Virus record (IMG/VR): IMGVR_UViG_3300036851_000525 | Coordinates: 1 to 42,819 of that record | From: a virus | Strand: one strand, 5' to 3' | Length of the DNA stretch: 42,819 nucleotides | Shown: one piece after another, positions 1,034 to 42,819 of the stretch | How positions within the stretch are numbered: position 1 is the first letter of the stretch | Layout of the letters: each line of letters starts with the position of its first letter | Made by a program: the position numbers and the translations under genes | The notes under the pieces: generated by a model | Told to the model about the DNA's origin: nothing | Seen by the model: only the letters and a program-made list of their open reading frames with translations | Database searches by the model: none

Positions 1034-1452
1034 CAGGGTGCCACCTCGTCGCGGACGGTGATGGTGAGCGTGGCCTGGCGGGCGCTGCCGCCGCCCTGGA
1101 TATCCACGAACGGCGGAACGAGCGAGGCGTCCGAGATAGCCTCGGCCGCCTTCACCCGGTTTGCGAGCGTCCTGTCGCGTGCCAGCTCATCCATGAGCGT
1201 GTCGCAGAAGCTACCCAGGCTCGCGGACGCCTCGTCGGCAGGTTCCGGCTCCACGAGCAGGATCAGCTCGCAGGTGCGCACTCGCTCAAGCCGCTGTTGG
1301 GTGCGTCCCGCGACCTGTCGGATGCCGGTGATCGCGACGGCGAGATCGGGAAAGGGGAAGTCTCCCTCGGGCGCGGAGCGAGCCTGTTGAAGCTCGGGCA
1401 GAGTCTCGATGGCCCAGTCGATCAAGGCGTCGATCGTCTGCGCGGTGGTCAC
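1033..1452 (-). CDS. Tail terminator / minor tail protein
   Basis: A 139-residue protein starting with GTG at 1452, overlapping the preceding stop by 4 bp (GTGA). It begins with a helix (IDALIDWAIETLPEL) and ends with beta strands (ARQATLTITVRDE). That helix-then-strand arrangement, the length of about 140 residues and the position between the gp10-like connector and the tube protein fit the tail-terminator family (lambda gpU-like), which caps the tail tube and joins it to the head. The sequence itself is divergent, so the call rests mainly on gene order. Confidence 0.65.
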   Translation of the reverse strand: MTTAQTIDALIDWAIETLPELQQARSAPEGDFPFPDLAVAITGIRQVAGRTQQRLERVRTCELILLVEPEPADEASASLGSFCDTLMDELARDRTLANRVKAAEAISDASLVPPFVDIQGGGSARQATLTITVRDEVAP

Positions 1453-1973
1453 AGGGCCCTCGCAATCCGGCGCCCAGCCTCACTCACTATCGCCCCGGCC
1501 AGGACGCGGATCTGCGACAGCGGCCTCGCCGCCCAGTCTGAGCCCGGGCGATAGCCCTTGACGCTGGTCCGGTAGAGCACCTGGCCGCCGATTGTCAACC
1601 GCAGGGCCCTGTTCGGCGGCTTGGGATAGATGCGGCCGACGCGATGCCCCCACCGCGAGACCGCCACGTAGTCGAAGCCCGTCTCGGGATCCCTCGCCCG
1701 CGCTGTGATACGCGCCGATTTACCCGAGATCGAGGCGAGGATGCCGCGTTCCAGGCGGCCGGTGTCCTGCGGAGCGACCGCTCTAAACAGCCGCACCGAT
1801 CCACGTGCGGTCTCTCCGACCGCCCACTCCATCTCGTCATCACTGCGATCGGCCAGGCCGAGGAACTGCTTGGCGACCCTTCGACCCCCGACCGTGCGAG
1901 CGGTGACGCTCACCGGTGTCGCAGCGACACCCCGCAGTCGCGCCCGCGCGCTGGGCGCTTCCGCGGTCGCCAT
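1449..1973 (-). CDS. HK97 gp10-like head-tail connector / tail completion protein
   Basis: A 174-residue protein. The segment APQDTGRLERGI followed by DPETGFDYVAVSRWGH is the family signature of HK97 gp10-like neck proteins ('P-x-DTGRL...' and a later Y-A-x-x-xxxG). It should sit at the head-tail junction. ATG at 1973. Codons about 15-19 are made by the 15-bp palindrome at 1916-1930, giving the residues VAAT, so the N-terminal 20 residues may be a flexible, added segment. It overlaps the next gene by 4 bp. Confidence 0.75.
   Translation of the reverse strand: MATAEAPSARARLRGVAATPVSVTARTVGGRRVAKQFLGLADRSDDEMEWAVGETARGSVRLFRAVAPQDTGRLERGILASISGKSARITARARDPETGFDYVAVSRWGHRVGRIYPKPPNRALRLTIGGQVLYRTSVKGYRPGSDWAARPLSQIRVLAGAIVSEAGRRIARAL
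1916..1930. repeat. 15-bp palindrome copy 1, in frame inside the gp10-like gene
   Basis: GTGTCGCAGCGACAC, flanked by G and C to make a 17-bp perfect outer palindrome. It lies 43-57 bp inside the start of the leftward gp10-like gene and is translated as VAAT. Confidence 0.95.
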
Positions 1974-2435: not shown

Positions 2436-3217
2436 CAGTACGGACTCCGGGTCTGCGCACGCGGCGCGACGGTCACTCCGATGCCGAAGTTGTCCAGCTC
2501 GAAGAGCGACCCGTCGTAGGCGTTATAAGCGTTCGGCTGCTCGACCGCGGAGGAGACCGCGGGGATCTCGGCCTCGCCCTTCGCGAGCTTCGCCAGCAGC
2601 TCGGCGGCGCGGCGGTAGCGCAGCAGCACGGGATGGTTCTCGACCAGGGGGTGGTTGCGGCGGTGGACGAGCGTCGCTGAGTGGGCCGCGAGGTCACGGG
2701 TCAGCTGGGCGATCAGCGGCGGGATCGAGCCCTGGACGAACGGCACCGTGTAGCGCTGGGCCAGCTGGGCGTCGATCTGCTGCTGAGCCTCGGTGATCGC
2801 GTCAGCCAGCTCCGCGTTCGAGAGGTTCGCCGCGGTCGCGTCGTCCTGCTTTCCACGCGGAGCAAGAGCATCGCGCAGGTCCGCGATCGAGGTGTAGAGC
2901 GTCGTCGGGGCGCCGGAGAAGACCGGATCGGAGGTGGCCGTGTCTCCGGAGGCATCGAGGAAGACGACCCGATACCAACCCTGGGCGAGCGTCGCGTTCT
3001 CAACGGTGAAGTTGCGCGAGCGCGGGTTCTCGGGATCGGTGTCGACGGGGGAGAGGTTCTGGGTGCCGAGGCTCGTCCACGGCCCCGCGTCCGCCGCGGA
3101 CTCCTCGATCCGCGCCTGGGTCCAGGGGTCGACTGTGGGCGGGTGGCGGGGCGGTGGGCGATACCCGGTGAGCGAAACTACGAGAGGAATAGCGAGGCTC
3201 CTTTTCGAGAGTTGCAC
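2432..3217 (-). CDS. Head-tail connector (gp6/gp36-like) with an added beta domain
   Basis: This 261-residue protein has a C-terminal connector-like part (about 105-230: SIADLRDALAPRG, then NAELADAITEAQQQIDAQLAQRYTVP and a helix pair) typical of phage gp6/DUF1320-type adaptor proteins that dock under the portal. The first 100 residues look like a fibronectin-type strand set (ESAADAGPWTSLGTQ ... QGWYRVVFLDASGDTATSD). The annotated ATG overlaps the 3' end of the upstream HNH gene by 40 bp. A start downstream of the HNH stop would lack an ATG, so the exact N-terminus is unsure. Confidence 0.7.
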   Translation of the reverse strand: MQLSKRSLAIPLVVSLTGYRPPPRHPPTVDPWTQARIEESAADAGPWTSLGTQNLSPVDTDPENPRSRNFTVENATLAQGWYRVVFLDASGDTATSDPVFSGAPTTLYTSIADLRDALAPRGKQDDATAANLSNAELADAITEAQQQIDAQLAQRYTVPFVQGSIPPLIAQLTRDLAAHSATLVHRRNHPLVENHPVLLRYRRAAELLAKLAKGEAEIPAVSSAVEQPNAYNAYDGSLFELDNFGIGVTVAPRAQTRSPYW

Positions 3218-3828
3218 ACATGGTGTGCGACCTGCAGGTTCGCATACGAGTGTTCGCCGCCACGCGCGAGCGGAACAATGTGGTCGAGGTCAAAGGCGAG
3301 CGGGTCTACGTCTTCGCCGCAGATCCCGCAACAGCCGTCGTCCATCTCAAGGACAACGAGAGCATCGACACGCTCGACACGCGAGGTGGCCTTCGCTGCC
3401 CTTCGCCGGGCCTCTTTCTCACGATGGATTTCGCGAGCACGTTCAGGGTTCTTTTCGCGCCATCGGCGGACCCATTCGTCGCGCCGTTCCGGGTCCGTGC
3501 GCAAATAGGCAGCTCGACGAGCTGCTCGCTGAGCTGGGTCGCGGCGATATCGCTCTTGCCGCTGCCGCTGAACGCACTCAATGCACGTTCGGCGTCGATA
3601 GCCACGATCTTGCTGCCCGTAGAACCCCGTTAACGGCTTCCGGACTTCGCACACCTGGCAGACCCTCCCGAGCCGACGTTCCTCCTTCTTTTGCCTCTCG
3701 CGCTCAGCGCGTCGTTCGGCAAGAACTCGCTGCTTTCGTGCTACCGCTCGCGCGATGATCTTGTCCCGATTGCGCAGGTAGTAGCGGCGGTCCTGCTCGC
3801 GCTTCGCTGCGGGGTCGGCGTACGGCAT
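3178..3828 (-). CDS. HNH endonuclease with long basic N-terminus
   Basis: A 216-residue protein. A strongly basic region (residues 1-55 and 90-145, Arg-rich) contains a zinc element (CQVCEVRK ... RRTCIEC). The C-terminus is a canonical HNH fold: CGICGEDVDP, FDLDHIVPLARGG, YANLQVAHHVCNSRKG. The two CxxC pairs, the DH pair and the HxxCN site are all present, so it should be an active endonuclease. ATG at 3828 follows directly on the stop of the fibre-like gene. It sits between two structural genes, like the other HNH genes here. Confidence 0.92.
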   Translation of the reverse strand: MPYADPAAKREQDRRYYLRNRDKIIARAVARKQRVLAERRAERERQKKEERRLGRVCQVCEVRKPLTGFYGQQDRGYRRRTCIECVQRQRQERYRRDPAQRAARRAAYLRTDPERRDEWVRRWREKNPERAREIHREKEARRRAAKATSRVERVDALVVLEMDDGCCGICGEDVDPLAFDLDHIVPLARGGEHSYANLQVAHHVCNSRKGASLFLS

Positions 3829-11663: not shown

Positions 11664-12296
11664 TCAGCCCATCAGCTCGCCATCGGGCCAGGGCGGACCC
11701 GGCTCGCAGCGGCAGGCCCCGCCGTGGAGCATCCCAGGGAAGACGGGCTGGCCCTCGACCGTCGGCGGGCGATCAGCCCTGAAGTTGCGCCCGTGCGCCT
11801 GGCGGCAGCCGCGAGTGGTGCGCTCGTCGCGCACCGAGCGCCAGCCGAGTGTGAGGCCGTAGCGTCCGGCGGCCTCGTCCACCCGCACAGCCGCCTCGAT
11901 CCGCAGCCGCTCGGCGTCCAGGTGGGCGGCGAGGTAGCGGCGCTCGGCCTGGACGGCCGCGAGGTGGCGGTCCTCCGGCACGTCGAGCCGGCGTGAGGCA
12001 TTCAGCAGGTAGGCGGCCCGGCGGGCGTAGGCGGTGCGGCGGATCTGGCGAGCTGCCACCCCCTCGCCCGCGATCGCGGGCAGCTCGCGAGCTCCGATCA
12101 GCGCGATCGTCTCGGCGACTGCCGCGGCGGAGATCCCGAGCGGTGCGAGCAGGCTTGAGGCGTAGCCGACGAATGCGGCGCCGGCCATGCCGCCGAGCAG
12201 GGCGACTACGAGGGCGGCGAGGGCAGCGGTCTCGGCCTCGGAGAGCTGCTCGGGCGGAGCCTCAGACGCCGGTGTCGCAGCGACACTCGCCTCCAT
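11664..12296 (-). CDS. MuF-type minor head protein
   Basis: A 210-residue protein. Residues 25-75 are hydrophobic helices (AALAALVVALLGGMAGAAF). The C-terminus carries the Mu gpF/SPP1 gp7 signature: RTTRGCRQAHGRNF, then PPTVEGQPVFPG, then HGGACRCEP. MuF proteins sit inside or at the vertex of the prohead beside the portal and are encoded right after it. Codons 4-7 (VAAT) are supplied by the palindrome 12272-12286. ATG at 12296 immediately follows the stop of the tape-measure-like gene. Confidence 0.88.
   Translation of the reverse strand: MEASVAATPASEAPPEQLSEAETAALAALVVALLGGMAGAAFVGYASSLLAPLGISAAAVAETIALIGARELPAIAGEGVAARQIRRTAYARRAAYLLNASRRLDVPEDRHLAAVQAERRYLAAHLDAERLRIEAAVRVDEAAGRYGLTLGWRSVRDERTTRGCRQAHGRNFRADRPPTVEGQPVFPGMLHGGACRCEPGPPWPDGELMG
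12272..12286. repeat. 15-bp palindrome copy 4, in frame inside MuF
   Basis: GTGTCGCAGCGACAC, 10-24 bp inside the MuF start, read as VAAT on the coding strand. Confidence 0.95.
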
Positions 12297-12680
12297 CTAG
12301 TTGTTCTTCCGAACGACAACCGCCGCCACGAGGGCGGCGGCGCCGATCAAAGGACCAAAGACATACTCTGGTCGACTCAGCATCCTATCCAGGATTGCGG
12401 CCAGCAACTCCCTCCTGGTTGCTCGCAGCCGCGCCCGGCGTCGGGCACGACGTACATCTCGTTCCGCTTCGGCGTACTCGCGGTCAAACGCAGCCAAATC
12501 CGCCGATATCGCTCTCAACTCACTGCGCGCCCGCTCGTTGTCACCCAGAATGTCGAGCAACGTCGCGGCGACATCGGGATCAGAAAGAGCGCCGCCCGCC
12601 CTCGAACCGAAGCCCCAGGGCGGGCGGACATGGAGATCAGCGAAGCGCCGAACTCGACTAAGCACTCTAAACGGGGTCAC
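12297..12680 (-). CDS. Membrane-anchored paralogue of the tape measure N-terminus
   Basis: A 127-residue protein. Residues 36-93 align without gaps to residues 3-60 of this phage's tape measure protein: both carry LGDNE, then a D-L-A-x-F-D block, then RQEL/RREL. By hand I count about 35 identities in 58. Residues 1-35 are basic and unrelated. Residues about 107-123 form a hydrophobic, probably membrane-spanning helix (FGPLIGAAALVAAVVV) ending in RKNN. ATG at 12680 overlaps the portal stop (ATGA), and its stop abuts MuF. Function unknown; see findings. Confidence 0.8.
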   Translation of the reverse strand: MTPFRVLSRVRRFADLHVRPPWGFGSRAGGALSDPDVAATLLDILGDNERARSELRAISADLAAFDREYAEAERDVRRARRRARLRATRRELLAAILDRMLSRPEYVFGPLIGAAALVAAVVVRKNN

Positions 12681-14008
12681 GGACTGACCCCGGCCTCGCG
12701 CAACAGCGACTCGGCCGCGCTGATGCCGTTCTGCAGCTGCTCGGCCGGTGCCTCCGCCTTACGACCCTGGAGCGCCTTGGCCACCTGGTCGACGTCGAGG
12801 TCCAGGTGCTCGGCCACTTTGACGACCAAGAGATCGAGAAACTCCTGCGGCGGCGGGGACTGCTGGCCTGAGAGCGCCTGCAACAGCTCGCGCGCCGCGT
12901 CCGCCGCCTCCTGGGTCAGCTTGCCGAACTTGAAGGCCGGGGTGCGCCCGGCCGGGAAGTTCCACCGGATCAGGTCCGCCACCGCGTAGCTCGTCAGCAC
13001 CGCGCCCATCTCCTCCAGCACCGCGTAGCGCGAGCGCAGGAAGAGGTCCGACTGGTCGGCCGAGAGCGCGAAGCTCCCCTTGCCCGAGCCCTGCTGGGCG
13101 AGATCGGTGAAGCTGGCCAGCACCGAGGCGGACATCTCGGCCGAGAGCCAGTCGAGGCACTCCTTGAAGGCCGCGCCGTCTGAGCCGGGCTCCATCAGGT
13201 CGATCGACTGCGAGCCGGTGATGCCCACGACCCCGCCGCCCTTCAGGCCGGCGACCTTCTGGGCGAGCTTGTCCGCCTCGCCGGCGTCGTTGCGCTCGTC
13301 CTTGGCCGCCGCCCACGGCGTCGCGTGGCGCTCCAGGAAGGCGAACCAGAGGAAGCGCACCTTCTGCTTGGACTCGAACGCCCGGTAGGCGGTCTCCATC
13401 GCGGAGCGACCTGTCAAGGGAGCGCGCGCCTGGTCGTGCAGATAGACGAGCGCCTTCTCGCGCGGGATCGGCACGGTCTTGAGGTTCCCGTCCTTTGAGA
13501 TCCGCTGGGTGAAGCCGGCGAAGCCGCCGTCCTCCTTGTCGCGCCGCAGCGTGCACGACGCCGCGGGCCGGAAGGCGAGCTTCTTGTAGGCGACCCGATC
13601 GCCCAGGACGCGGAAGACCTTCTCGAAGAACGCGCGCCGGAAGACCACCGCGGAGGAGAGCTGGGCGATCACGTGCCCGATCGGGGTCGACATGCCGCCC
13701 TCATGCAGCGGGGTCTCGAGCGCCACGCGGACGAACTCCGCCTCGCCGGAGTCGCCCTCCTGGGGCACGATCGACCAGGGGGCCCAGCGCAGCGGGAGCG
13801 TCAGCGCCTGCTCGACCTGCTGCGCCTTGCCGTCGCGCTGGAGCATGTCCGAAAGGTCACGCTCGTTCGGCTGCTCGAAGGTCGTCGAGCTAGCCCAGTC
13901 GCCGAAGTCGGAGAAGAGCCTGCCCTCGGGGTCGACCGAGCCGAACTCGCCCTCCGGTGGACCGCCGTTGCGCAGCGCGGTCCCGTCTGTCAGCTCGACG
14001 TTCGGCAC
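12677..14008 (-). CDS. Portal protein
   Basis: A 443-residue protein of the portal family, probably the Mu gp29/DUF935-like branch (DLSDMLQRDGKAQQVEQALTL near residue 55, APWSIVPQEG, a long helical stem and an acidic C-terminus). The portal is the dodecameric ring through which DNA enters the head. I chose the GTG at 14008 over the upstream ATG because the extension would translate the palindrome 14016-14030 out of frame as QCRCDT. Gene order terS-terL-(homing gene)-portal-MuF is standard. Confidence 0.87.
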   Translation of the reverse strand: MPNVELTDGTALRNGGPPEGEFGSVDPEGRLFSDFGDWASSTTFEQPNERDLSDMLQRDGKAQQVEQALTLPLRWAPWSIVPQEGDSGEAEFVRVALETPLHEGGMSTPIGHVIAQLSSAVVFRRAFFEKVFRVLGDRVAYKKLAFRPAASCTLRRDKEDGGFAGFTQRISKDGNLKTVPIPREKALVYLHDQARAPLTGRSAMETAYRAFESKQKVRFLWFAFLERHATPWAAAKDERNDAGEADKLAQKVAGLKGGGVVGITGSQSIDLMEPGSDGAAFKECLDWLSAEMSASVLASFTDLAQQGSGKGSFALSADQSDLFLRSRYAVLEEMGAVLTSYAVADLIRWNFPAGRTPAFKFGKLTQEAADAARELLQALSGQQSPPPQEFLDLLVVKVAEHLDLDVDQVAKALQGRKAEAPAEQLQNGISAAESLLREAGVSP

Positions 14009-14015
14009 GGCCTGA

Positions 14016-14030
14016 GTGTCGCAGCGACAC
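14016..14030. repeat. 15-bp palindrome copy 5, upstream of the portal start
   Basis: GTGTCGCAGCGACAC fills the gap between the homing-type gene (stop 14034) and the portal GTG (14008), 8-22 bp upstream of the start. Confidence 0.95.
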
Positions 14031-14033
14031 TGG

Positions 14034-14906
14034 TCAGCGTGTCTTAGCTCGGCGACGTGCCGCATCACGTGTTCGGCACTCGTCACACCTCATGAACCCA
14101 CTCGGCGGCTCCGTGCGGCCACATGTCGAACACAAACCTGCCTCGCGCCAAGCTGCCCGACGTCGTCGCTGATACTCGCGCTGAGCACGGCCATCTTGCT
14201 GGCGTTGATACCGCGCCTGACTGGCTCGAAGGCACCGCTTGCAGACGGGGTAACGTCGACCCTCATAGGCACCGCGTCCCTTGATCCAGACGACGTTCTC
14301 GCCAGTGATCTCGTGTCCCTGCCGACACACGTCGGCCCGACCCCGATGGCGCGGACGGGACTCAAATCCTGCCGCTCGGATCGCTTCGTTCCACGTTCCA
14401 AAGACCGTCTTGACCACCCACGAGGAGGGACGACTATTGCGCTCCCCCGCCAAGTGCCTGGTTCCGTTTCCACACCGGCTCGCCCGTCGCTCCCACTCCT
14501 TGGCGAGTGGAGGCCTGCCGGTTCTCGCCGCCCAACGTCGGATCGCTGCGATGATGCGAGCCTCGGTCCAATAGCGGCCCGCCCCTCGATCAGTCGCTAG
14601 ATCACGCGCCGTCGCTCGTACATGGTCGCTGACTAACACAGCACCCGGGAATTGGCGCCGATACTCCGCTGACGCCATGCCGTGAAAACAGCGGAGGTGA
14701 GAGGACAAGTAGTGCAACTCCACCCCGCACAACAAACAGGCGATCCGACCATCGCGCGACGACGATAGGCCGGCTCCTGCCTTCCGACGCGGATTCTTGT
14801 AGTTCGCCAGGCGGCAGGCGTCTGAGCACCAACGGGCCTTAGGGCCGCGGTGTTCTAATGACGCGCCGCAGCCTTGACAGGCGTCAGCCGAACCCTCGCT
14901 TCCCAC
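14034..14906 (-). CDS. Homing-type DNA-binding protein: zinc fingers plus homing-associated repeat
   Basis: From the GTG at 14906 this is 290 residues. In order: a CQGCGASL...WCSDAC zinc ribbon; a Ros/MucR-type finger (CLLCGVELHYLSSHLRCFHG, then EYRRQFPGA); a homing-endonuclease-associated repeat (YWTEARIIAAIRRWA, GRPPLAKEWERR, TVFGTWNEAIRAAGF); a CRQGHEITGENVVW...CKRC finger; and a last CSTCG...CDEC pair. I see no clear HNH or GIY-YIG catalytic core, so it may be a DNA-binding remnant or a divergent nuclease. It splits the terL-portal junction. Confidence 0.75.
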   Translation of the reverse strand: MGSEGSADACQGCGASLEHRGPKARWCSDACRLANYKNPRRKAGAGLSSSRDGRIACLLCGVELHYLSSHLRCFHGMASAEYRRQFPGAVLVSDHVRATARDLATDRGAGRYWTEARIIAAIRRWAARTGRPPLAKEWERRASRCGNGTRHLAGERNSRPSSWVVKTVFGTWNEAIRAAGFESRPRHRGRADVCRQGHEITGENVVWIKGRGAYEGRRYPVCKRCLRASQARYQRQQDGRAQREYQRRRRAAWREAGLCSTCGRTEPPSGFMRCDECRTRDAARRRAKTR

Positions 14907-14937
14907 CTCTGCATCTTCATCTACCGCTCGGATGCGC

Positions 14938-16299
14938 TCATGACCAACGGTGCACCCCGGGCGCCGGCTCGTCGGTGTAGCGGTGGACCGCGTCCTCCGG
15001 TAACGGGCCGCCGCCATAGCCGATCAGATCCGTGAGCGCCCACACGCAGGCATCGAGCAGATCGAGCCCCGGCACGACCTCCTGGCCGGTGAAGCTCGTC
15101 ATCGCCTCCTCGAGCTCGGGGTGGTAACCGAGGTGGCAGACCTTGCCCTGCTCGTAGAGCATCGCAATCGGATGAGCACGTACCCGCTTCCCGTCTGAAG
15201 CGTGAACGATCCGCACCGGGGCATGGATGCCGGTGTCACGCTGGACGCGGTCAAGCAGCTCCGCCAGCGGTTGGCCACCGTAATTTTTCTCCAGCACCAG
15301 CTTGCCGCCGTGCTGGCGGGCCAGCTCAAGCGCCCGCGTCAACCAAGCGAGCTGAGAGCCGCGGTGAGTCTCGGTGTGAAGGACGTAGAAGCGGTTGTCC
15401 ATCCCGAACCCGGCCACGCAGATCGCCTGCTCCGATGCCGCCCCACCACCGGCAGGGTCGAGGCCGATGCTGATCGCCTGATAGCCGGCATAAGGATCGC
15501 TCTCCGCCCGCTGGTCGTCGATCCAGGCCATCTGCCACAGCGTCCCCTCGATGTCTTCGAGCAGCTCGCCGGCCAGCTCCTGCCTGCCGAGTCGCGTTCC
15601 CCGGTAGCGCTCGACGACCGCCTGAACGAACGCATCGGAGAGATTCGAGAGGTTGTCCTCGGTGCGCATGTGGGTCACCACGTCCGCCTCCTCGCGCACG
15701 ACGCGCTTGACCAGGCGCGTCGGCTTCAGCGTCGTGGTCACGACGATCTGGGCCTTGCCCATCCGGACGGCGAAGCGGATCGCCTGGTCCCACGCCTGCT
15801 CGCCCCAGCGCGGGCGCCAGTTGCGCAGCTCATCACACCAGCATCGCTTGAGGTTCTCGCCCTCGACCTTGACCGCGCCCGAGAAGGCTTCGTCGATCAG
15901 CACCCTCGCGCCAGAGGTCAGCCACAGCTCCCCGAGTGAACGGTTCCAGGTCCGCACCCCGATCCCGCGCCGCTTGAGCGCCGGCAGCAGGCCGGAGACG
16001 CCCTCGACGCACTTGTCGCGCGCCTCGCCGAAGGTCGGGGCAACGATCGCGGAGGCGTCGCCGGCGCCGTCGTCTGCCAGCTCGGCCGCGAGCCATTCGG
16101 CTCCGGTGCGCGTCTTCCCGCCGCCGCGGCCGCCACGCACGAGCCATACCTGCCACTCCTGCTTCGGAGGCAACTGCTCAGGTCGGGCGACCTGCTCCCA
16201 CGGCTCGTAAACGAGCTCGAGCAGCCGGTCGCGCAGCGCCTGCTTGCGCTCAATCGGCCACTCTTGCCAGTCAGGCGGGCTTGCCGCTCGGCTGGCCAT
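14938..16299 (-). CDS. terL: Terminase large subunit
   Basis: A 453-residue packaging motor from the ATG at 16299. Walker A is GGRGGGKT (residues 56-63). The Walker B acid pair is in CWCDEL (about 153-158). A coupling-like TTTLKPT lies at 188-194. The C-terminal RNase H-like nuclease has D281 (SIGLDPAGGG), E337 (LVLEKNYGG) and D416 (LLDACVW). All active-site residues are present, so both ATPase and nuclease should work. It overlaps terS by 29 bp. The motor docks on the portal and cuts concatemers. Confidence 0.95.
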   Translation of the reverse strand: MASRAASPPDWQEWPIERKQALRDRLLELVYEPWEQVARPEQLPPKQEWQVWLVRGGRGGGKTRTGAEWLAAELADDGAGDASAIVAPTFGEARDKCVEGVSGLLPALKRRGIGVRTWNRSLGELWLTSGARVLIDEAFSGAVKVEGENLKRCWCDELRNWRPRWGEQAWDQAIRFAVRMGKAQIVVTTTLKPTRLVKRVVREEADVVTHMRTEDNLSNLSDAFVQAVVERYRGTRLGRQELAGELLEDIEGTLWQMAWIDDQRAESDPYAGYQAISIGLDPAGGGAASEQAICVAGFGMDNRFYVLHTETHRGSQLAWLTRALELARQHGGKLVLEKNYGGQPLAELLDRVQRDTGIHAPVRIVHASDGKRVRAHPIAMLYEQGKVCHLGYHPELEEAMTSFTGQEVVPGLDLLDACVWALTDLIGYGGGPLPEDAVHRYTDEPAPGVHRWS

Positions 16300-30624: not shown

Positions 30625-31029
30625 TCAGAGCGGAACGAGCTCCAGCTCGGTGTGCGGCTCGTCGCCCGGCTCCGCGTAGGCCTTGCGCGCCTCGAGCTCG
30701 ACCACCTGGCGGTCGTCCGCGAACGCCAGCCGATTGAGCGGATCGAAGACTCCCTTCACGAGGTTATCCACGTCCGGCGAGGGGAACTCCGGAGCGCCCT
30801 TGCGAAGTGCTCCGTCGCCTCGCAGGTGCGACGGTGGTCGGGCGAAGTAGAAGCTCGCCTCGGCCCGCAGCGGCGCGGTGCCGAGATGCGGGCGCCCCTC
30901 GACAAGCCAAGCGGCCTGGACGCGCTGCTCGTACTCGACCACGTTCGGAGCCTTGAAGTAGCGATTGCCCTTGCGACGTGCACGCTGCCAGGGCACCGGG
31001 TCGCCGGGGATCGTGATCGTGACTACCAA
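30625..31029 (-). CDS. rusA: RusA-type Holliday junction resolvase
   Basis: A 134-residue protein with the RusA pattern: VTITIPGDPVPWQRARRKG at the start, then SPDVDNLVKGVFDPLN (D86, D88) and FADDRQVVELEARKAY (D105, D106). These acids bind metal in the RusA active site. It should resolve branched DNA ahead of packaging. In this map it is the last leftward gene before the lysogeny island, far from the main recombination module. Confidence 0.9.
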   Translation of the reverse strand: MVVTITIPGDPVPWQRARRKGNRYFKAPNVVEYEQRVQAAWLVEGRPHLGTAPLRAEASFYFARPPSHLRGDGALRKGAPEFPSPDVDNLVKGVFDPLNRLAFADDRQVVELEARKAYAEPGDEPHTELELVPL

Positions 31030-31241
31030 CCCTCGGTGACCTCCACCAGCACGGCGGCCGAGCCCGGGCGTGCACGGATCCGCGCCACCTTCGGGCGGCC
31101 CTTCTCGACGAAGGCGATCTCCGTCAGCTCACCCTCGGCGTCGACGCCGTAAACGCGCACGTTCGGGTGGCCGCGCTCGCCGAGCAGCTGCTCGGCATCC
31201 GCCTCAGCGCCACGTTGCTCTGCGGATGAACCAGCGGCCAT
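31023..31241 (-). CDS. Small hypothetical protein
   Basis: A 72-residue protein (ATG at 31241) with an acidic start and a beta-rich body (VRVYGVDAEGELTEIAFVEK, then VARIRARPGSAAVLVEVTEG). Overlaps the RusA start by 7 bp. It looks like a small adaptor but has no named family. Confidence 0.55.
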   Translation of the reverse strand: MAAGSSAEQRGAEADAEQLLGERGHPNVRVYGVDAEGELTEIAFVEKGRPKVARIRARPGSAAVLVEVTEGW

Positions 31242-31305
31242 AGAGGATCACGCTGGCGATGGTGGCCGTCCATGCGGCCAAGTCGAGCGCGCGGCTTCGC
31301 TTCAC
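31204..31305 (-). CDS. 33-residue membrane peptide
   Basis: GTG at 31305, overlapping the TGA before it. Basic start (KRSRALDL) and a hydrophobic helix (AAWTATIASVILYGRWF). The frame overlaps the next gene by 38 bp. Possible lysis-cassette accessory. Confidence 0.45.
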   Translation of the reverse strand: MKRSRALDLAAWTATIASVILYGRWFIRRATWR

Positions 31306-31397
31306 GGCGGAGCGACGGTGAGCGTGATCAGGACGGCCAGGAGGATCGCGCTGGCGAGAATCAGCCACGCGATGACGCTGCTGGTTCTGTGGTTCAT
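31302..31397 (-). CDS. 31-residue membrane peptide
   Basis: ATG at 31397, stop overlapping the next GTG. One strong helix (VIAWLILASAILLAVLITLT). It stands between the muralytic enzyme region and the 33-residue peptide, so it could act as a small holin-like or pinholin-like partner. Confidence 0.5.
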   Translation of the reverse strand: MNHRTSSVIAWLILASAILLAVLITLTVAPP

Positions 31398-31531
31398 CTG
31401 TGCAGGTCGCCGTGGCGCCGAGAGCGCCGGGGGACATGCACCACATAGCCCCGCGCCAGCCAGTGGCTTAGGTCGTGCGGGCTGACGACCCGATAGTGCC
31501 CGCCCGCGTTGCGGACGAGAATCCTGTTCAC
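31394..31531 (-). CDS. Small hypothetical protein
   Basis: A 45-residue protein from the GTG at 31531 (overlapping the muramidase stop, GTGA). It has an aromatic, His/Arg-rich sequence (HYRVVSPHDLSHWLARGYVV) and no membrane helix. Coupled to the lysis genes; unknown role. Confidence 0.5.
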   Translation of the reverse strand: MNRILVRNAGGHYRVVSPHDLSHWLARGYVVHVPRRSRRHGDLHR

Positions 31532-32016
31532 AGCCGCCGTTCCCAGCGTTCGCGCGCCTCCATGGCTGCACGGCTGTAGGCCTCGGCGGCCGGGCCCGAG
31601 CCGTTGTACGAGCGGTACGCCTCCTGCAGGCTTCCCTCCCGCCGCCGGTTCTCACGCAGGATCTGGAAGCCGGTGAGCATGTTGTAGAACGGATGCCAGC
31701 AGCCCCCAGCGCGGTCGGCCCGATCCTGGAACGTCCACCAAGTGAGCTGCGCAGGGCCGACTCCCTGCATCTGCCGCCCTGGCGTGCCGCGCTGGCGCTT
31801 GTAATCCGCGTAGCTGCGGCGCGTGACGCGCCCCGCCCCGGAGAAGATCGTCGGGTCGTGGCCGAAGACGTTCCGCCCCCAGGACTCCAGCTCGATCAGC
31901 GCGGCCGCGGTGGCGATCTTCACGCCGGCGCGCCGGGCGGCCCGGATCAGCCGGAAGGCGTTGCGGATCCCGTGCCGTCGGAGCGTCCGCGCGTGGCGGA
32001 TGTCGCGCGGCCTCAC
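31528..32016 (-). CDS. Peptidoglycan glycosidase, transglycosylase/lysozyme-like
   Basis: A 162-residue enzyme from the GTG at 32016. A helical start leads to the catalytic segment ALIELESWGRNVFGHD, with E44 the likely acid, then MQGVGPAQLTWW and an end YNGSGPAAEAYSRAAMEAR. This is the SLT/goose-lysozyme pattern. It should cleave the glycan strand and is encoded just after the holin, so it is one of two cell-wall enzymes here. It has no signal peptide or binding domain. Confidence 0.8.
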   Translation of the reverse strand: MRPRDIRHARTLRRHGIRNAFRLIRAARRAGVKIATAAALIELESWGRNVFGHDPTIFSGAGRVTRRSYADYKRQRGTPGRQMQGVGPAQLTWWTFQDRADRAGGCWHPFYNMLTGFQILRENRRREGSLQEAYRSYNGSGPAAEAYSRAAMEARERWERRL

Positions 32017-32243
32017 GTGTGCTGCTCGGGCGGCTTCGTGTCCTCGGCGAGGGTCTCCAGCGCCGAGCGCTCCTCGTACTTGCCCCAGTTGTTGAGCCAC
32101 ACCCCCACGACGGCGGCGAGGGCGCCGACACCGCCGACGAGCCCGATCACGCTCGTGGTGTCGAGGTCGGCGAGGATGGGAAGGACCGCGGCCGCGAGCG
32201 CGGCTGCGGCAGTGAAGTAGACAGCGATGCGGTTCGGAAGCAC
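32013..32243 (-). CDS. Holin
   Basis: A 76-residue protein from the GTG at 32243 with two hydrophobic helices (YFTAAAALAAAVLPILAD and VIGLVGGVGALAAVVGVWL) and an acidic, hydrophilic end. Size, topology and position between two lytic enzymes are typical of a holin. It overlaps the glycosidase start. Confidence 0.78.
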   Translation of the reverse strand: MLPNRIAVYFTAAAALAAAVLPILADLDTTSVIGLVGGVGALAAVVGVWLNNWGKYEERSALETLAEDTKPPEQHT

Positions 32244-32254
32244 GATGCTCCTCC

Positions 32255-32884
32255 TTAGATCTGTCCGTCGCGATCCGCGAGCACCCGCCCGAGGACCGCC
32301 TTTCGTTCGCCGTCAGCGCGACGGTGAAATCGTTCGACGCGCTCGCGCCAGAAGGTCACCCAGCGGTTCTGTCGCCGCCAGCGCTTGCCGTGGCCGGTGT
32401 GCCCCTCTCGCTTACGCTCGCGGCGGTGGTAGAGCAACCGCTCGGCTGCGGCACGCTGGCGCTTGCCGAGCTTGCGCAGCGGGTCGGGGCGTGGGGCCCA
32501 GACGCCGGCGCGGTACTTGAGGTGCCACCACTCCCACGAGGCGTCGCTCCATTCCTTCGCCCAGCCGAATTGCCGGCCGATGCGATCAATGGCTGCGCGC
32601 TGCGCCTGCAGCGGGAGGTCGACGGCAAGCGCCCAGCCGTGGTTCGAGGTGCCGGGCGTCGCAGCGTCGCTGCCGAAGATCTGCTTGGCGAGCACCTGGC
32701 GGGCGAAGGAGCGGTAGCACCGGCCTACGGACCCGTCGATGATGGTGAGTGGCACGCCGAGCCGGTTGACGCTCGCGAAGTGCATCGCCTTGTAGGCGCG
32801 CGCGGCCGACTTGAGCAGCCCGGCGTTCGAGCCGGGGATGGGGCTCAGTGCGGATGAGGGTGCGTTGCCGTTCGGGAAGGTCAT
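32255..32884 (-). CDS. Endolysin, M15/VanY D-Ala-D-Ala carboxypeptidase
   Basis: A 209-residue peptidase. The zinc site is intact: S80-N-H82-x6-D89 (TSNHGWALAVD), with E118 and H121 (SWEWWHLKY). It should cut the peptide side chains of peptidoglycan at lysis. The last 75 residues are strongly basic (RERKREGHTGHGKRWRRQ) and may bind the wall. ATG at 32884, 10 bp before the holin in the leftward order. Confidence 0.9.
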   Translation of the reverse strand: MTFPNGNAPSSALSPIPGSNAGLLKSAARAYKAMHFASVNRLGVPLTIIDGSVGRCYRSFARQVLAKQIFGSDAATPGTSNHGWALAVDLPLQAQRAAIDRIGRQFGWAKEWSDASWEWWHLKYRAGVWAPRPDPLRKLGKRQRAAAERLLYHRRERKREGHTGHGKRWRRQNRWVTFWRERVERFHRRADGERKAVLGRVLADRDGQI

Positions 32885-33210
32885 CGGTGCTCCGTCTCGT
32901 ACGGCACGAGCTCCAGTTGCGAGCCCACAAATGCACGCCTACGGGCCAGCGTGACGGGCGGGACGCGCACGAGGGGACGGCGACGTCGGATCGACCCCAG
33001 CGCGCTCCAGAAGGCGGAGGAGCGCACGGCCCATTCGAGGTCTCGCAGGGCCTCGCGGCGGCAGGAGGTCGAGCAGTACTCGCCATCGGTGCGGAAACCC
33101 TCCAGGGACCGCTTACAGCCGAGCCGACCGCAGACCCCAGGTGAACCGTTCCGGCCGGTCTCAGGGCTAAGCGCCGCAGCGCTGAGAGCATCGTGAGCGA
33201 TGCCGTCCAT
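32881..33210 (-). CDS. Small zinc-finger protein next to the endolysin
   Basis: A 109-residue protein (ATG at 33210). A Cys-rich middle (GVCGRLGCKRSLEGF, then EYCSTSCRREALRD) could bind one zinc. The ends are hydrophobic/basic. Overlaps the endolysin start (ATGA). No known family. Confidence 0.55.
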   Translation of the reverse strand: MDGIAHDALSAAALSPETGRNGSPGVCGRLGCKRSLEGFRTDGEYCSTSCRREALRDLEWAVRSSAFWSALGSIRRRRPLVRVPPVTLARRRAFVGSQLELVPYETEHR

Positions 33211-33239
33211 GCCTCTGAGGTTGTGGGCTGCGGCGGACG

Positions 33240-33884
33240 CTAGGGCTCGGCGGTGAAGGTGCAGCCGGTGAGCAGGGTCCCCGGCTGGAGCGGGTCATCG
33301 TCGCCCGTGCAACTGACGGTGAAGGTGTTGGCGGCGAGGTAGGCGGCGATCGCCGCGGCGAGCTGCTCGTCGGTCGGGCCGGGCCCGGGGTCGCCCTTCT
33401 CGCCGGGCGGACCCTGCGGCCCCTCGGGCCCCTCCGGTCCTTCCGGTCCCTCCGGCCCAGGCGGGCCCGGTCGCCCCTCGCCGCCGGTCTGCCCGAACGG
33501 TCCTTCCGGTCCGATCGGCCCGATGTCGCCCTGCGGCCCCTCGGGCCCCTCCGGTCCTTCCGGTCCGGTCTCGCCGAGCGAACCCTGGACACCGGGCTCT
33601 CCGGGCTCGCGGTCGATGATGCGCTCGACGCGCTCCACCCTGACTTCGACGACCCGCGCCTTGCGGCTCGAGCGCTCCGCCTCGCTGGTCGCCTTCTCGG
33701 CACGGCCGGTCGCGCTGGCCGCCTTGCGCTCGGCCTTCTTCGAGATCTCCGCAGCCCGCCCGGCGGCGGACTCCGCCTCTTGGGCGCGCTCGGAAACCTC
33801 GTCGGGGCTGCGCAGCAGCAGCACGGCCGCGGCCGAGAAGGCAGCCAAAAGCACCGCGGCGGCAAGTAGGCGCCTACGGTCCAC
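33240..33884 (-). CDS. Membrane-anchored, coiled-coil, collagen-like protein
   Basis: A 214-residue protein starting with GTG at 33884. It has an N-terminal membrane anchor ([20 protein letters not shown]), a coiled-coil stalk at about 30-90 ([20 protein letters not shown]), a collagen-like Gly-x-y stretch at about 92-165 ([13 protein letters not shown] is typical), and a small beta C-terminus ([16 protein letters not shown]). The codons of the repeat are nearly uniform. It sits in the lysis region; a secreted or virion-surface fibre is possible. Confidence 0.75.
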
Positions 33885-34179
33885 GCCGGCGCCCGATGTC
33901 GCGCAGGATCACGACTAGGGCATAGAGCGCAACGAGGTAAGCACCCACCACCAGCAGCGACTCCGCCCCGAACGGAGCGTGCTCGAGCAGGCGCTGGCCG
34001 AGCTCGAGCTGGGCGAAGACCACCAGACCGGAAAAGGCGCAGGCGATCAGCGCCACGTGAACCGCCTTCGCCCCTCCTCCTCGCAGCGCGATCGGTGCCC
34101 ACTGGTAGACGACCAACCCGGCCAGCCCAAGCACCGCACCGCCGAGGCTGAGGACCAGCGCGCGGTAGAGCTCAAGCAT
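33874..34179 (-). CDS. Small polytopic membrane protein
   Basis: A 101-residue protein (ATG at 34179) with three or four hydrophobic helices ([60 protein letters not shown]). Positioned in the small-membrane-protein cluster upstream of the lysis genes; likely a holin-like or accessory membrane protein. Confidence 0.65.
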
Positions 34180-34354
34180 CGTTGCCCTTCCGCAGCAGCC
34201 GCTCCCCGAACGCCCAACCAGCGACGAGCATCATCAGAGCGTGGATCGTCGGGGGCGGGTCGTACGCGGGCCAAGCCGCGTCCAGGATGAACGAGACGAC
34301 CCAGGCCACGAGCACCACCAGCGCGATGATCGCCGCGATCCGATCACGGTCCAT
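34172..34354 (-). CDS. Small membrane protein, holin-like
   Basis: A 60-residue protein (ATG at 34354) with two hydrophobic helices (AAIIALVVLVAWVVSFILDA and IHALMMLVAGWAFGERLL) and a basic end. Overlaps the upstream gene by 11 bp and the next by 8 bp. Possible second holin or antiholin. Confidence 0.6.
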   Translation of the reverse strand: MDRDRIAAIIALVVLVAWVVSFILDAAWPAYDPPPTIHALMMLVAGWAFGERLLRKGNDA

Positions 34355-39209: not shown

Positions 39210-42092
39210 CTAGAGCCCCACCCTCTGGCGCGGCGCCGGGCGGTGCCCCTCGCCGAAGATGCCCGCGATTACGAGCCGGGCCGCCTCGCGCTGGACGCGC
39301 GGGTCGCCGGGATGAAGCGACTGCTGGGTGAGGCTGACCTGGTAGTTGTGGTTGATCTCGGTCTGGGACGGCGGTGTCGCTGCGACACCGGCGGACGAGA
39401 CGGCCATGGCGGCGGCCGGGGCGACGCGGCTGATCTCGGCGCTCATCGTTGCCACCACCCCCGCGCTGGCCCGCTCAAGGCCTTGCGAGAACCCGCGCAT
39501 GGTGTCCACCCCGAGCCGGCGGAAGACCTTCGAGGGCGAGCCGATCCCGAAGATCTCCTTGGCGGCGTTCAGCGGGGCCGAAGCGATGTCCTTGGCCGTG
39601 TTCACGAGGTCGTCCAGCATCGACTTCATGCCGCCGACCAGGCTCTTGATCAGCTCCACGCCGAGGTTGAACCAGTTGCTCGCGAAGCCGCTGATCAGTC
39701 GCAACGCGTCGTTGACCGCGTTCGCGACCACGTCCTTGATCGAGCCCCAGATGTTGGCGGCGGAGGCCTTGATCGACTGCCAGACGTCGACGAGTACCCC
39801 CTTGGCGCTCTGGAAGACCGAGACCGCCACCTCCTTCGCCCCCCGGACAGCGGTGCCGATGGCCTCCTTGACCCCGCCCCAGATGTTCGAGGCCGCGCCC
39901 TTGATCGCGTTCCAGACCCCCGAGACCGCGCCCTTGCCCGCCTCCCAGACCGAGACGACGGCGTTCTTGGCCGCGCCGGTGGCCGTGGTGATCACGCCGC
40001 GAATCGCGCCCCAGATCGACGACGCAGCCGAGCGGATCCCGCCCCAGATCGCCTGGATCGCCGCCTTGCCGTTCTCCCACGCCCCGCGAACGAGCGAGAC
40101 GACGGCCTGGACCGAGCCGACGATGATGCCGCGGATCGCCGCCCAGACCGACGAGGCGACGGCCTTGAGGGCGTCCCAGACCGCGGCGATCGCCGTGCTC
40201 CCGCCCTGCCAGATCGCCACCACGACCGAGGCGTAGATCTGAGCGACCGCGGAGGCGTAGGCCCCGATCGCGTTCCAGACCGCCTGCGCGGCGGCCTTGA
40301 GGGCGTCCCAGACTCCGGTCAGCCACGCCTTGATCGCGGTCCAGGCCGCAATCGTCGCAGTCTTCACCCACTCCCACTTGGCGATGATGAGCGCCGCCAG
40401 AGCGGTAATCGCGACCGCGATCGCGACCACCACGGCCACCGGCAGGCCGAGCGCGGCGGCAAGGGCGACGGCCCCGACCGCGAGCGCGCGCAGGATCATC
40501 CCGATCGGCCCGAGCGCGGCTCGTATGACCCCGCCGAGCTTCGAGAACACGGGCCCGATCTTGGAGCCGATCTTGACCAGCACTCCCCCCACCGAGGAGA
40601 ACACCGAGACGATCGCGCCGACGATCGAGACCACGACCTTGCCGAAGGCCGCAAGTCCCGCCAGGGCGCCGATGACCGCGACGAGGTCGCCGGGGAGCGC
40701 GCTCAGCACCCGCATCAGGCCGGTGGCCGCCTTGCCGAAGGCGGAGAAGAAGGCCGCGATGCCCGGGCCGTAGGTGCGGGCGAAGTTCGCCAGATCGCGG
40801 ATCGAGAAGAAGACCTCGTTGAAGAACTGGCGGATGCGCTTCTGCCCCTTGGCCGACTCCGCCCAGCGGGCGAACTCGTTCACGATCGAGGTCAGGTCGC
40901 GCACCCCCGCACGCCCGTTGTCGATCAGCGCCGAGAAGACCGCGGAGACCACCCGCCCGACGGCGGTCCCGAGCCGCAGCAGGCTGGCGAAGTCGCGCAC
41001 CATCTCGCGGATCACCCCGCGCGTGCCCTGAATGTCGCCGGTCGCATGGGCGATCTTGGCCAGGCCGTCCGCCACCCCGCGCGCCCCCTTGATCAGCAGC
41101 GGCATGGCCGCCCGCGCGATGTCGAGGAAGATCTCCGCCAGCAGGGCGATCGAGCGGGTGAGCGGACCCGAGATCGGAGCGCTCGCCCGCATCAGGGCGC
41201 CGAACTCCGGGACGAGATTCGCCACCCGCGTCCCAAGCTGCTCGACAGCCGCTCCCGCCGCCTCGCCGAAGGCGGTGAAGGCGGGCTTCAGCTCGCCGAC
41301 TGCGTGTCGGATGGCGTGCACGGCGGGGACCAGCCCGTCCACGAAGGCGACGATCCCGGTATGGGCGGCGTCCTGGAACTCGCGCCCGAGCCCACGCACC
41401 TCCTCCTTCAGCCGCTGGGCGGCCGGCCCGCCCTCCTTCAGGCCCTTCACCACCGCGAGGCCGAAGACCCCCGCCGAGATAGCCGCGCCGGCGAACGCGA
41501 GGCCAAGCGCCCCCAGTCCGACGGCGGCCGAGGCGAGCACGGTCACCATCGGCGCGAGCGTCCCGACGAGGCTGATCATGCCCGGGATCAGGACGCCAAT
41601 CAGGATGGTCCCGACCGTCCGCACCTCTCCGGCGAGGTTGCGCAGGCCACCGCCGAAGCGCCCGCCCGCCCGCTCGGCCACACCCGCTCCGCGGGCGAAG
41701 CCGCCGAAGTCCGGGACCACCGCCTGGAGCTGGTTGCGCAGGCCCCCGATCCCGCCGACGATGTTCTCCAGCGCCCCGCGGCGGACGTCGACGTCGACCT
41801 CCACCTCGCGCCGGTCGAGTGCTGCCAGCTCGCGCTCGAGCACGCGCAGCTGGACCTGGGCCTCGGAGATCCGCGCCCCGATCTCGGGCGTGGTCTCCTC
41901 GCCCTCCAGGCGCAGCAGCTCCTGGCGGATCGCCCGGATCTCCGCCTTCGCCCGCTGGGTCTGGACGTCGAGCTCGGCCTCGGCGCGCTCCTGGTCGAAC
42001 TTGGCCAGGTCGCCCGAGACCTCCTTGAGGTCGGCTCTCGCTTGCTCGTTATCCCCAAGGATCTCGAGCAGGACGCTCGCGACGTCAGCCAT
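39210..42092 (-). CDS. Tape measure protein
   Basis: A 960-residue protein from the ATG at 42092, which overlaps the T-frame chaperone stop by 8 bp. A helical N-terminus (LLEILGDNEQARADLKEVSG) and coiled coil (to about 110) lead to a long middle rich in Gly/Ala/Val membrane-like helices and Trp-rich repeats (AAAQAVWNAIGAYASAVAQI style, about 540-850). Length sets tail length; at about 1.5 angstrom per residue this predicts a tail near 140 nm. The last 60 residues hold a palindrome-encoded VAAT. Confidence 0.9.
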   Translation of the reverse strand: MADVASVLLEILGDNEQARADLKEVSGDLAKFDQERAEAELDVQTQRAKAEIRAIRQELLRLEGEETTPEIGARISEAQVQLRVLERELAALDRREVEVDVDVRRGALENIVGGIGGLRNQLQAVVPDFGGFARGAGVAERAGGRFGGGLRNLAGEVRTVGTILIGVLIPGMISLVGTLAPMVTVLASAAVGLGALGLAFAGAAISAGVFGLAVVKGLKEGGPAAQRLKEEVRGLGREFQDAAHTGIVAFVDGLVPAVHAIRHAVGELKPAFTAFGEAAGAAVEQLGTRVANLVPEFGALMRASAPISGPLTRSIALLAEIFLDIARAAMPLLIKGARGVADGLAKIAHATGDIQGTRGVIREMVRDFASLLRLGTAVGRVVSAVFSALIDNGRAGVRDLTSIVNEFARWAESAKGQKRIRQFFNEVFFSIRDLANFARTYGPGIAAFFSAFGKAATGLMRVLSALPGDLVAVIGALAGLAAFGKVVVSIVGAIVSVFSSVGGVLVKIGSKIGPVFSKLGGVIRAALGPIGMILRALAVGAVALAAALGLPVAVVVAIAVAITALAALIIAKWEWVKTATIAAWTAIKAWLTGVWDALKAAAQAVWNAIGAYASAVAQIYASVVVAIWQGGSTAIAAVWDALKAVASSVWAAIRGIIVGSVQAVVSLVRGAWENGKAAIQAIWGGIRSAASSIWGAIRGVITTATGAAKNAVVSVWEAGKGAVSGVWNAIKGAASNIWGGVKEAIGTAVRGAKEVAVSVFQSAKGVLVDVWQSIKASAANIWGSIKDVVANAVNDALRLISGFASNWFNLGVELIKSLVGGMKSMLDDLVNTAKDIASAPLNAAKEIFGIGSPSKVFRRLGVDTMRGFSQGLERASAGVVATMSAEISRVAPAAAMAVSSAGVAATPPSQTEINHNYQVSLTQQSLHPGDPRVQREAARLVIAGIFGEGHRPAPRQRVGL
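39374..39388. repeat. 15-bp palindrome copy 11, in frame near the tape measure C-terminus
   Basis: GTGTCGCTGCGACAC, translated as VAAT within SSAGVAATPPSQTEINHNYQ. It lies 165-179 bp upstream of the next gene start (39209), the one copy not near a start apart from copy 9. Confidence 0.95.
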
Positions 42093-42351
42093 CAGCGCCC
42101 CGCTTCCACCAGGCCTCCTGAAGGCCACGTGACCGGCCTCCGTGCAGGCGCGAGGGCGGGACCGAGACGACCTTGCGGAGGTTCTTCGGCTTGTGCTGCG
42201 CCGTTGCCATCATCGCCCCGAAGGCCTCGAGCTCGCGCTTGCGGCGGCGGTTGTAGGCCTCGCAGAGCGCCACCAGGCGCGGGAAGGTCAGGCCTCGCTC
42301 GGCGAGGGCGTTGGGTCGCTCGGACCAGAACTCGTCGGGTCCGATTCCCCA
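42085..42351 (-). CDS. Tail assembly chaperone, frameshifted extension (T-type)
   Basis: This frame is one base behind the upstream chaperone gene and has no good start of its own. It reads WGIGPDEFWSERPNALAERG, then FPRLVALCEAYNRRRKRELE, the recognised C-terminal extension of G/GT tail chaperones (W-G-I, then E-F-W). It should be made only as a fusion by -1 slippage on a fraction of ribosomes. The slippage point is not obvious; T-GGG-GAA at 42345-42351 is the best candidate I can see. Confidence 0.75.
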   Translation of the reverse strand, partial: WGIGPDEFWSERPNALAERGLTFPRLVALCEAYNRRRKRELEAFGAMMATAQHKPKNLRKVVSVPPSRLHGGRSRGLQEAWWKRGADG

Positions 42352-42819
42352 CTCGGCGGCGGCGAGCTCGCAGAGATCGTCGAGAGCCTCTCGGTCATCT
42401 GGACCCGAATCAGGCTTCTCAGCAGCGTAGGGTCCACGATCTTGCCGAGGTTGCCGAGCACGTCGAACCGGTTGACCCGCCAGACGGTCTCGAAGGCCGC
42501 CACGATCTCGGGGAAGGTGGGCGAAGCATCCGCCGCCTCGTCGTAGTCCCCGGCCTCTAGGGCCGCCTCCGAGCCGTAGCCGGCGAAGACGTGGCGGGGC
42601 ATGCGCGCGGGCAGCGCCGGGATCAGCGCCGCCAGCACGTCGTAGGTCTTCTCGCCCAGGAAGAGGAGGAAGTTCTCGGTCGTGAGCTCCTCGCTCGACT
42701 CCACGAAGGCGGCGAAGGTGCGCCCGAGCCGGTTCGAGAGGTAAGCGTGGCGCTGGGGGTAGACCGGCACCGTGACGTCGCCGAGGGTGATCTCGTGCGA
42801 GAGCGCGCCCTTGCCGTTG
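42288..42819 (-). CDS. Tail assembly chaperone, main frame (continues from base 168 across the circular join)
   Basis: This is the body of the 190-residue chaperone; the first 30 residues lie at 79-168 in window coordinates. Segments include TVPVYPQRHAYLSNRLGRTF, EELTTENFLLFLGEKTYDVL and RFDVLGNLGKIVDPTLLRSL. The Ser/Pro-rich end is replaced by the T-frame when ribosomes shift. Chaperones of this kind bind the tape measure helices and deliver tube subunits. Confidence 0.8.
   Translation of the reverse strand, partial: NGKGALSHEITLGDVTVPVYPQRHAYLSNRLGRTFAAFVESSEELTTENFLLFLGEKTYDVLAALIPALPARMPRHVFAGYGSEAALEAGDYDEAADASPTFPEIVAAFETVWRVNRFDVLGNLGKIVDPTLLRSLIRVQMTERLSTISASSPPPSGESDPTSSGPSDPTPSPSEA
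42693..42819. repeat. Terminal direct repeat, right copy
   Basis: Exact copy of bases 1-127. See the left copy for its reading as an assembly overlap. Confidence 0.95.

Follow-up and report, generated by a model that had tools for sequence, protein, structure and literature searches.

The N-terminus of a phage tape measure protein (TMP) is its head-proximal end, as described for 80alpha (PMC11661146) and TP901-1 (PMC5099701). In 80alpha residues 1-37 of the TMP bind the tail completion protein (PMC11661146). In TP901-1 removal of the N-terminal residues 2-31 abolished infection and no plaques were formed (PMC5099701). The TMP is also targeted by phage and host proteins, namely Ltp (PMC3952083), Tab (PMC10884400) and SNIPE (PMC13190303). 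Here we describe a small phage gene that carries a diverged copy of the N-terminus of the phage's own TMP and ends in a predicted membrane helix.

The virus record analysed here (the window, i.e. the whole stretch of DNA) has 42,819 bp and carries a direct terminal repeat of 127 bp (1-127 and 42693-42819). Because of this repeat and a gene order that runs across the ends, the genome is most likely complete and probably circular or circularly permuted. The late genes are located on the minus strand and run from the terminase through the portal, head and tail genes and across the ends to the chaperone and the TMP. Since an integrase is present, a temperate lifestyle is probable. The small gene lies between the Portal_Mu gene and the MuF-like gene and is tightly packed there: the portal stop and its own start share the four bases GTGA (12680-12677), and its TAG directly abuts the ATG of MuF. 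The earlier note had placed it correctly without giving the strand, which is minus (Table 1).

Table 1. Coordinates of the small gene, its TMP counterpart and further features of the window
Feature	Position	Strand	Basis or remark
Small gene	12297..12680	minus	127 aa, GTG start
Codons for small-protein residues 36-93, copy of the TMP N-terminus	12402..12575	minus	BLASTP, shuffle control, AlphaFold2
Codons for small-protein residues 104-126, predicted C-terminal transmembrane helix	12303..12371	minus	Hydropathy and model
TMP, 960 aa	39210..42092	minus	PHROG 58 tail length tape measure protein, E 1.8e-66
Most likely TMP start	42092	minus	TGATG overlap with frame 42352-42092
Codons for TMP residues 3-60, counterpart of the copy	41913..42086	minus	Within modelled helix 2-64
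Probable tail assembly chaperone	42288..42770	minus	From its position upstream of the TMP; no Pfam or PHROG match
Portal protein (Portal_Mu)	12677..14086	minus	PF06074, E 6e-39
MuF-like minor head protein	11664..12296	minus	PF04233, E 2.6e-5, just below the Pfam cut-off
Candidate tail completion protein	1449-1973		Sequence resemblance only; no Pfam match
Palindrome copy	12271..12286	.	In the first MuF codons, just downstream of the small gene
Palindrome sites, 16 bp each	1915, 9660, 11254, 12271, 14015, 16820, 19092, 29331, 29777, 34558, 39373
Probable lysis cassette after the tail genes	31528-34354		Sequence inspection only
Small membrane proteins in the lysis-like cassette	34172-34354, 33874-34179, 32013-32243		Inspection
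Peptidase-like ORF	32255-32884		Inspection; no Pfam match
Transglycosylase-like ORF	31528-32100		Inspection; no Pfam match

The earlier note had aligned residues 36-93 of the small protein by hand with TMP residues 3-60 and counted roughly 35 identities. BLASTP reproduced this alignment without a gap, with 35/58 residues identical and 47/58 positive (73.6 bits, E 2e-20). The match spans residues 15-72 of the TMP ORF 39210-42128 (minus). Because the TMP most likely starts with the ATG at 42092, where it overlaps the stop of the upstream frame, these are residues 3-60 of the TMP counted from that ATG. Chance similarity between coiled coils, the objection that the note itself had raised, was ruled out by the E value together with shuffle controls. 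The Smith-Waterman score is 176, whereas 1000 residue shuffles averaged 38 and reached 70 at most. With the heptad classes kept, 1000 shuffles averaged 49 and reached 81 at most, at an observed score of 175. The reversed protein scored 49, and the 114 longest ORFs taken from 19 related contigs gave no more than 53, versus 175 observed. Thus the match is far above the level of random coiled coils and the similarity stands; that the small gene contains a copy of the TMP N-terminus is certain. Besides two pairs that stem from the end repeat, it is the sole protein pair of the window at E 1e-4 or better in an all-against-all comparison. The homology is limited to the extreme N-terminus of the TMP. 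Over these 58 residues the small protein is homologous to a TMP; with 127 amino acids it does not have a tail-spanning length, and it matched no full TMP profile in PHROGs or Pfam.

At the DNA level the two segments have diverged, as had been stated in the note. The codon positions 1, 2 and 3 agree at 39, 39 and 22 of 58 sites, respectively, and pS is 0.79, i.e. saturated, at a dN of 0.38. Saturated synonymous change at this dN implies that the protein sequence was conserved during divergence, which by these values appears to be old and protein-constrained. The constraint may have acted on two TMPs that diverged before a piece of one was captured.

The AlphaFold2 model of the small protein was built from a two-row alignment and, with so few sequences, supports helices, not assemblies. 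It predicted a weak N-terminal helix (residues 3-17) and a rod of 68 residues (35-102) with a pLDDT of about 90, which continues into a hydrophobic helix (104-126). TMP residues 1-147 were modelled as one helix over 2-64 and further helices thereafter, and the common stretch forms a single helix of roughly 60 residues in both models. The rod has a periodicity of 3.5 residues; in the register common with the TMP, hydrophobic residues occupy 16 of the 19 a/d positions. Identity to the TMP is 13/17 at a/d positions, which does not differ significantly from the 22/41 at the others (p 0.14). Outside the copy, the basic start seen in the note was confirmed in the sequence. The same holds for its C-terminal membrane helix, which was found by hydropathy at residues 105-123 (mean 1.98), besides the model; the last residues of the protein are RKNN.

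The codon usage of the small gene differs from that of the genes around it. It has a GC3 of 0.65 and a codon score of -0.27, while most structural genes, including TMP, portal and capsid, have a GC3 of 0.81-0.95 and codon scores of +0.2 to +0.58. GC3 is 0.92-0.94 for TMP, portal and capsid; the direct neighbours MuF and portal have 0.88 and 0.94. All parts of the small gene are low (N-terminal 0.59, rod 0.68, membrane 0.67), and its codon usage resembles that of the HNH homing genes of the same genome. Other low-GC3 genes include the HNH endonuclease 3178-3828, located among the head-tail genes, and the homing-endonuclease-associated gene 14034-15017 with an HNH_repeat and a ROS/MucR domain, located between terminase and portal. 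Both are of the low-GC3 homing-endonuclease type with overlapping ends. Because foreign codon usage covers all three segments, the small gene looks as if it had been imported as a unit, with a fusion that probably preceded the arrival, and not like a recent copy of the resident TMP. A recent direct duplication of the phage's own TMP is likewise disfavoured by the GC3 of 0.68 for the copied segment versus 0.93 for the TMP segment.

Foreign codon usage would also be expected if the gene were a captured fragment without function, i.e. a piece of another phage's TMP with a hydrophobic tail that landed between portal and MuF and persisted by keeping translation coupled and doing no harm. The HNH homing genes show that the genome picks up inserts, the conservation of the protein could stem from selection on two TMPs before the capture, and the absence of a homologue from every search and from 60 portal-MuF loci (see below) points in the same direction. 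Yet the ORF is intact and fits exactly between its two neighbours by overlap and abutment, the membrane helix is complete with a charged end, and the a/d core of the coil has been kept. A fusion that occurred before the import, as suggested by the codon usage of all three segments, argues against a mere fragment as well. On balance we consider a functionless capture possible but rather doubtful; even so, the gene would still record that pieces of TMP genes move into head operons.

The small protein matched no family in Pfam, PHROGs, PADLOC (2023 library, which may lack Tab and Tai) or the PDB, and tblastn of phages and plasmids yielded no homologue, in agreement with the note's statement that no described family of this design is known. 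None was obtained by scans of IMG/VR queried with the small protein, the alignment of small protein and TMP, the TMP and the next tail protein, or by a scan of genome contigs with the same alignment; these scans require an exact short peptide match and can miss distant homologues. Likewise, there was no homologue in about 1200 genomes, where the inspected matches were chance coils or a RecF-like match, or in 11 more virus contigs. In the literature no relevant publication on a truncated TMP or a TMP decoy was found. The arrangement is real and, so far, unique.

Relatives were sampled by portal (64 IMG/VR loci and five genome loci) and by capsid (80 more, best 40%). The closest portal relatives found have at most 43% identity. 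Their tails differ: a TMP search of 32 contigs sharing portal or capsid gave one weak match. A TMP candidate was present in 26 related contigs, and none of them encodes a paralogue of its own TMP N-terminus, as judged by ORFs that match the first 200 residues of the candidate at E 0.01 or better. The weak TMP similarity of Marky and L225 was discarded because it mainly concerns the second helix module, outside the first 36 residues common to the small protein. A TMP-like protein of 1191 residues (30770-34342) on G030, the contig of another phage (in L152 and L155), matches with its residues 996-1101 a separate small ORF (92335-92865) at 34% over 120 aa (E 2e-8).

MuF homologues were present in 50 related loci, and 60 loci with portal and MuF homologues, which were not deduplicated, entered a survey of the junction. 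There was no room for a gene at 34/60, mostly due to a 4-bp overlap, while 175-2887 bp separate the two genes at the remaining 26. In the Streptomyces phages Marky and Intolerant the portal is followed directly by a protease/MuF gene. The small gene was found at none of the 60 junctions; the inserts at the 26 are unrelated and varied, several being small membrane proteins. Insert-bearing junctions include L010, L013, L015, L017, L018, L020, L028, L034 and L056, and the insert in L018 has a weak, below-threshold holin match. Relatives accommodate variable accessory genes at the portal-MuF junction. The earlier note had named absence from collinear relatives as an observation that would refute its proposal. 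This absence was seen at 60/60 loci, but only in distant relatives (portal about 34-43% identical) with differing tail genes. Atypical composition and absence from the same site in relatives are two of the usual marks of an accessory gene, and the small gene has both; an acquired accessory gene of the moron type is the best reading.

The small membrane proteins at the same junction in relatives raise the question of whether the gene is a lysis accessory, encoding a holin-like protein with a coiled coil. Its single membrane helix next to a coiled coil and the holin match in L018 would be in line with this. Yet a separate lysis-like cassette, recognized by inspection, follows the tail genes, and the small protein matched no family, holin families of Pfam and PHROGs included. 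A holin is therefore disfavoured and a role in lysis is highly improbable.

The earlier note had suggested that the protein, being encoded at the portal, could be located at the portal or neck. It would then be a part of the virion, made together with portal and MuF and located in the head interior, the portal channel or the neck, where it pairs, upon joining of the tail, with the TMP N-terminus. The position in the head operon and the tight coupling to portal and MuF are consistent with this, and ejected internal head proteins can be hydrophobic. What stands of the note's proposal is that the TMP N-terminus does work at the neck, as in 80alpha and TP901-1 (PMC11661146, PMC5099701). Portal adjacency as a sign of a neck role was not supported, because the codon usage is foreign and the small gene is missing from a junction that is variable and at most loci empty. 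Furthermore, neck proteins do not usually end in a membrane helix, and a candidate tail completion protein is already encoded elsewhere. The membrane anchor is more in line with a cellular protein than with one of the neck, and we regard a virion part as unlikely.

Expression signals were analysed between 11600 and 13200. A scan limited to sigma-70-like promoters detected none there, and one terminator-like site was found with 0.6 expected by chance. The palindrome GTGTCGC(A/T)GCGACAC occurs at 11 sites genome-wide; searched as a 16-mer with at most two mismatches, it gave 21 matches counting both strands versus 0.1 expected. The exact palindrome was missing from all loci that are not from this genome. 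Palindromes fall just inside the portal and MuF starts, in the first codons. Because several sites are near gene starts or ends, we suspect that the palindrome is a repressor site scattered over many places of the genome, comparable to the stoperators of mycobacteriophage L5. Given its location in the late operon, the lack of a promoter-like site in the scan and the possible repressor palindromes in portal and MuF, the small gene may be silent in the prophage.

Our preferred explanation, which we put forward tentatively and consider little more probable than a captured fragment, is that the small gene encodes a tail-anchored coiled coil of the TMP N-terminal type that acts on the TMP in trans, as a decoy in exclusion or assembly. 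Judged from sequence and models, a rod of foreign origin that carries the core of the TMP N-terminus and is anchored in the membrane would best fit a protein that mixes with the TMP in trans. The small protein would be a tail-anchored protein of the inner membrane, with the diverged TMP rod as its cytosolic part; this orientation is suggested by the charge, since the membrane-side half of the rod is rich in Arg. Because the a/d core is identical at 13/17 positions, the rod may pair or co-assemble with the same segment of TMP N-termini. Held at the membrane, it could block insertion or release of an incoming or rival TMP, or docking of the TMP in the neck, and the outcome would be superinfection exclusion or assembly interference. 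The more specific version, a membrane-tethered coil that joins the TMP bundle of an incoming or competing phage and poisons it by dominant-negative exclusion, seems rather improbable to us.

The decoy is favoured by the homology to the TMP N-terminus only, the conserved protein, the import as a foreign unit, the variable junction with its small membrane proteins in relatives, the combination of rod and membrane helix, the heptad register common with the TMP, the probable temperance of the phage and the precedents of Ltp, Tab and SNIPE for proteins that target the TMP. On the other hand, the small gene lies on the late-gene strand, is translationally coupled to the portal and has no promoter-like site that the scan detected. 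If made together with the phage's own TMP, a decoy would be harmful; silence in the prophage would confine exclusion to late infection and expose the own TMP to the decoy. Tab and Tai escape self-harm via a separate promoter and an antidote (PMC10884400), and no antidote gene was identified here. The searches also gave no homologue to show selection on the small gene itself, and the reported target of both Ltp and Tab lies in the C-terminal part of the TMP and not at its N-terminus (PMC3952083, PMC10884400).

Compared with described proteins, the small protein is neither a TMP nor a lipoprotein of the Ltp type, and it gave no match to a known defence protein. It resembles the TMP N-terminus in sequence, in the modelled long helix and in heptad register, but it is 127 instead of 960 residues long, lacks the length-measuring part, has a basic N-terminus of its own and one terminal membrane helix, and is encoded at the portal. 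The superinfection exclusion protein gp15 of HK97 is likewise encoded by a moron, but to our knowledge it is not a copy of a TMP. Ltp, the superinfection exclusion lipoprotein of phage TP-J34, is phage-encoded, membrane-anchored and acts on the TMP, an action that is hypothesised for the small protein. Yet Ltp is no copy of a TMP, sits outside the cell on a lipid anchor and uses acidic repeats to bind the TMP C-terminus (PMC3952083), whereas the small protein contains no cysteine and hence no Ltp-type lipobox, is anchored by a C-terminal helix and as a whole has a pI of 11.3. Tab, the tail assembly blocker of phage JBD26, is a small accessory phage protein targeting the TMP, the putative target of the small protein as well; it differs in that its gene lies between those for the terminase, on the opposite strand, and has a promoter of its own and an antidote, and in that its effect was traced to the TMP C-terminus (PMC10884400). 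SNIPE is membrane-tethered and associates with the TMP during injection, and the N-termini of some homologues are related to a phage tail needle, but it has DUF4041 and a GIY-YIG nuclease and contains no TMP copy (PMC13190303). For the role of the TMP N-terminus in neck and ejection, the small protein offers a tool of 60 residues. Taken together, the exclusion and defence proteins considered here that target the TMP (Ltp, Tab and SNIPE) are unrelated binders, while a partial copy of the TMP used against the TMP would, if true, represent a simple and novel route to such an inhibitor.
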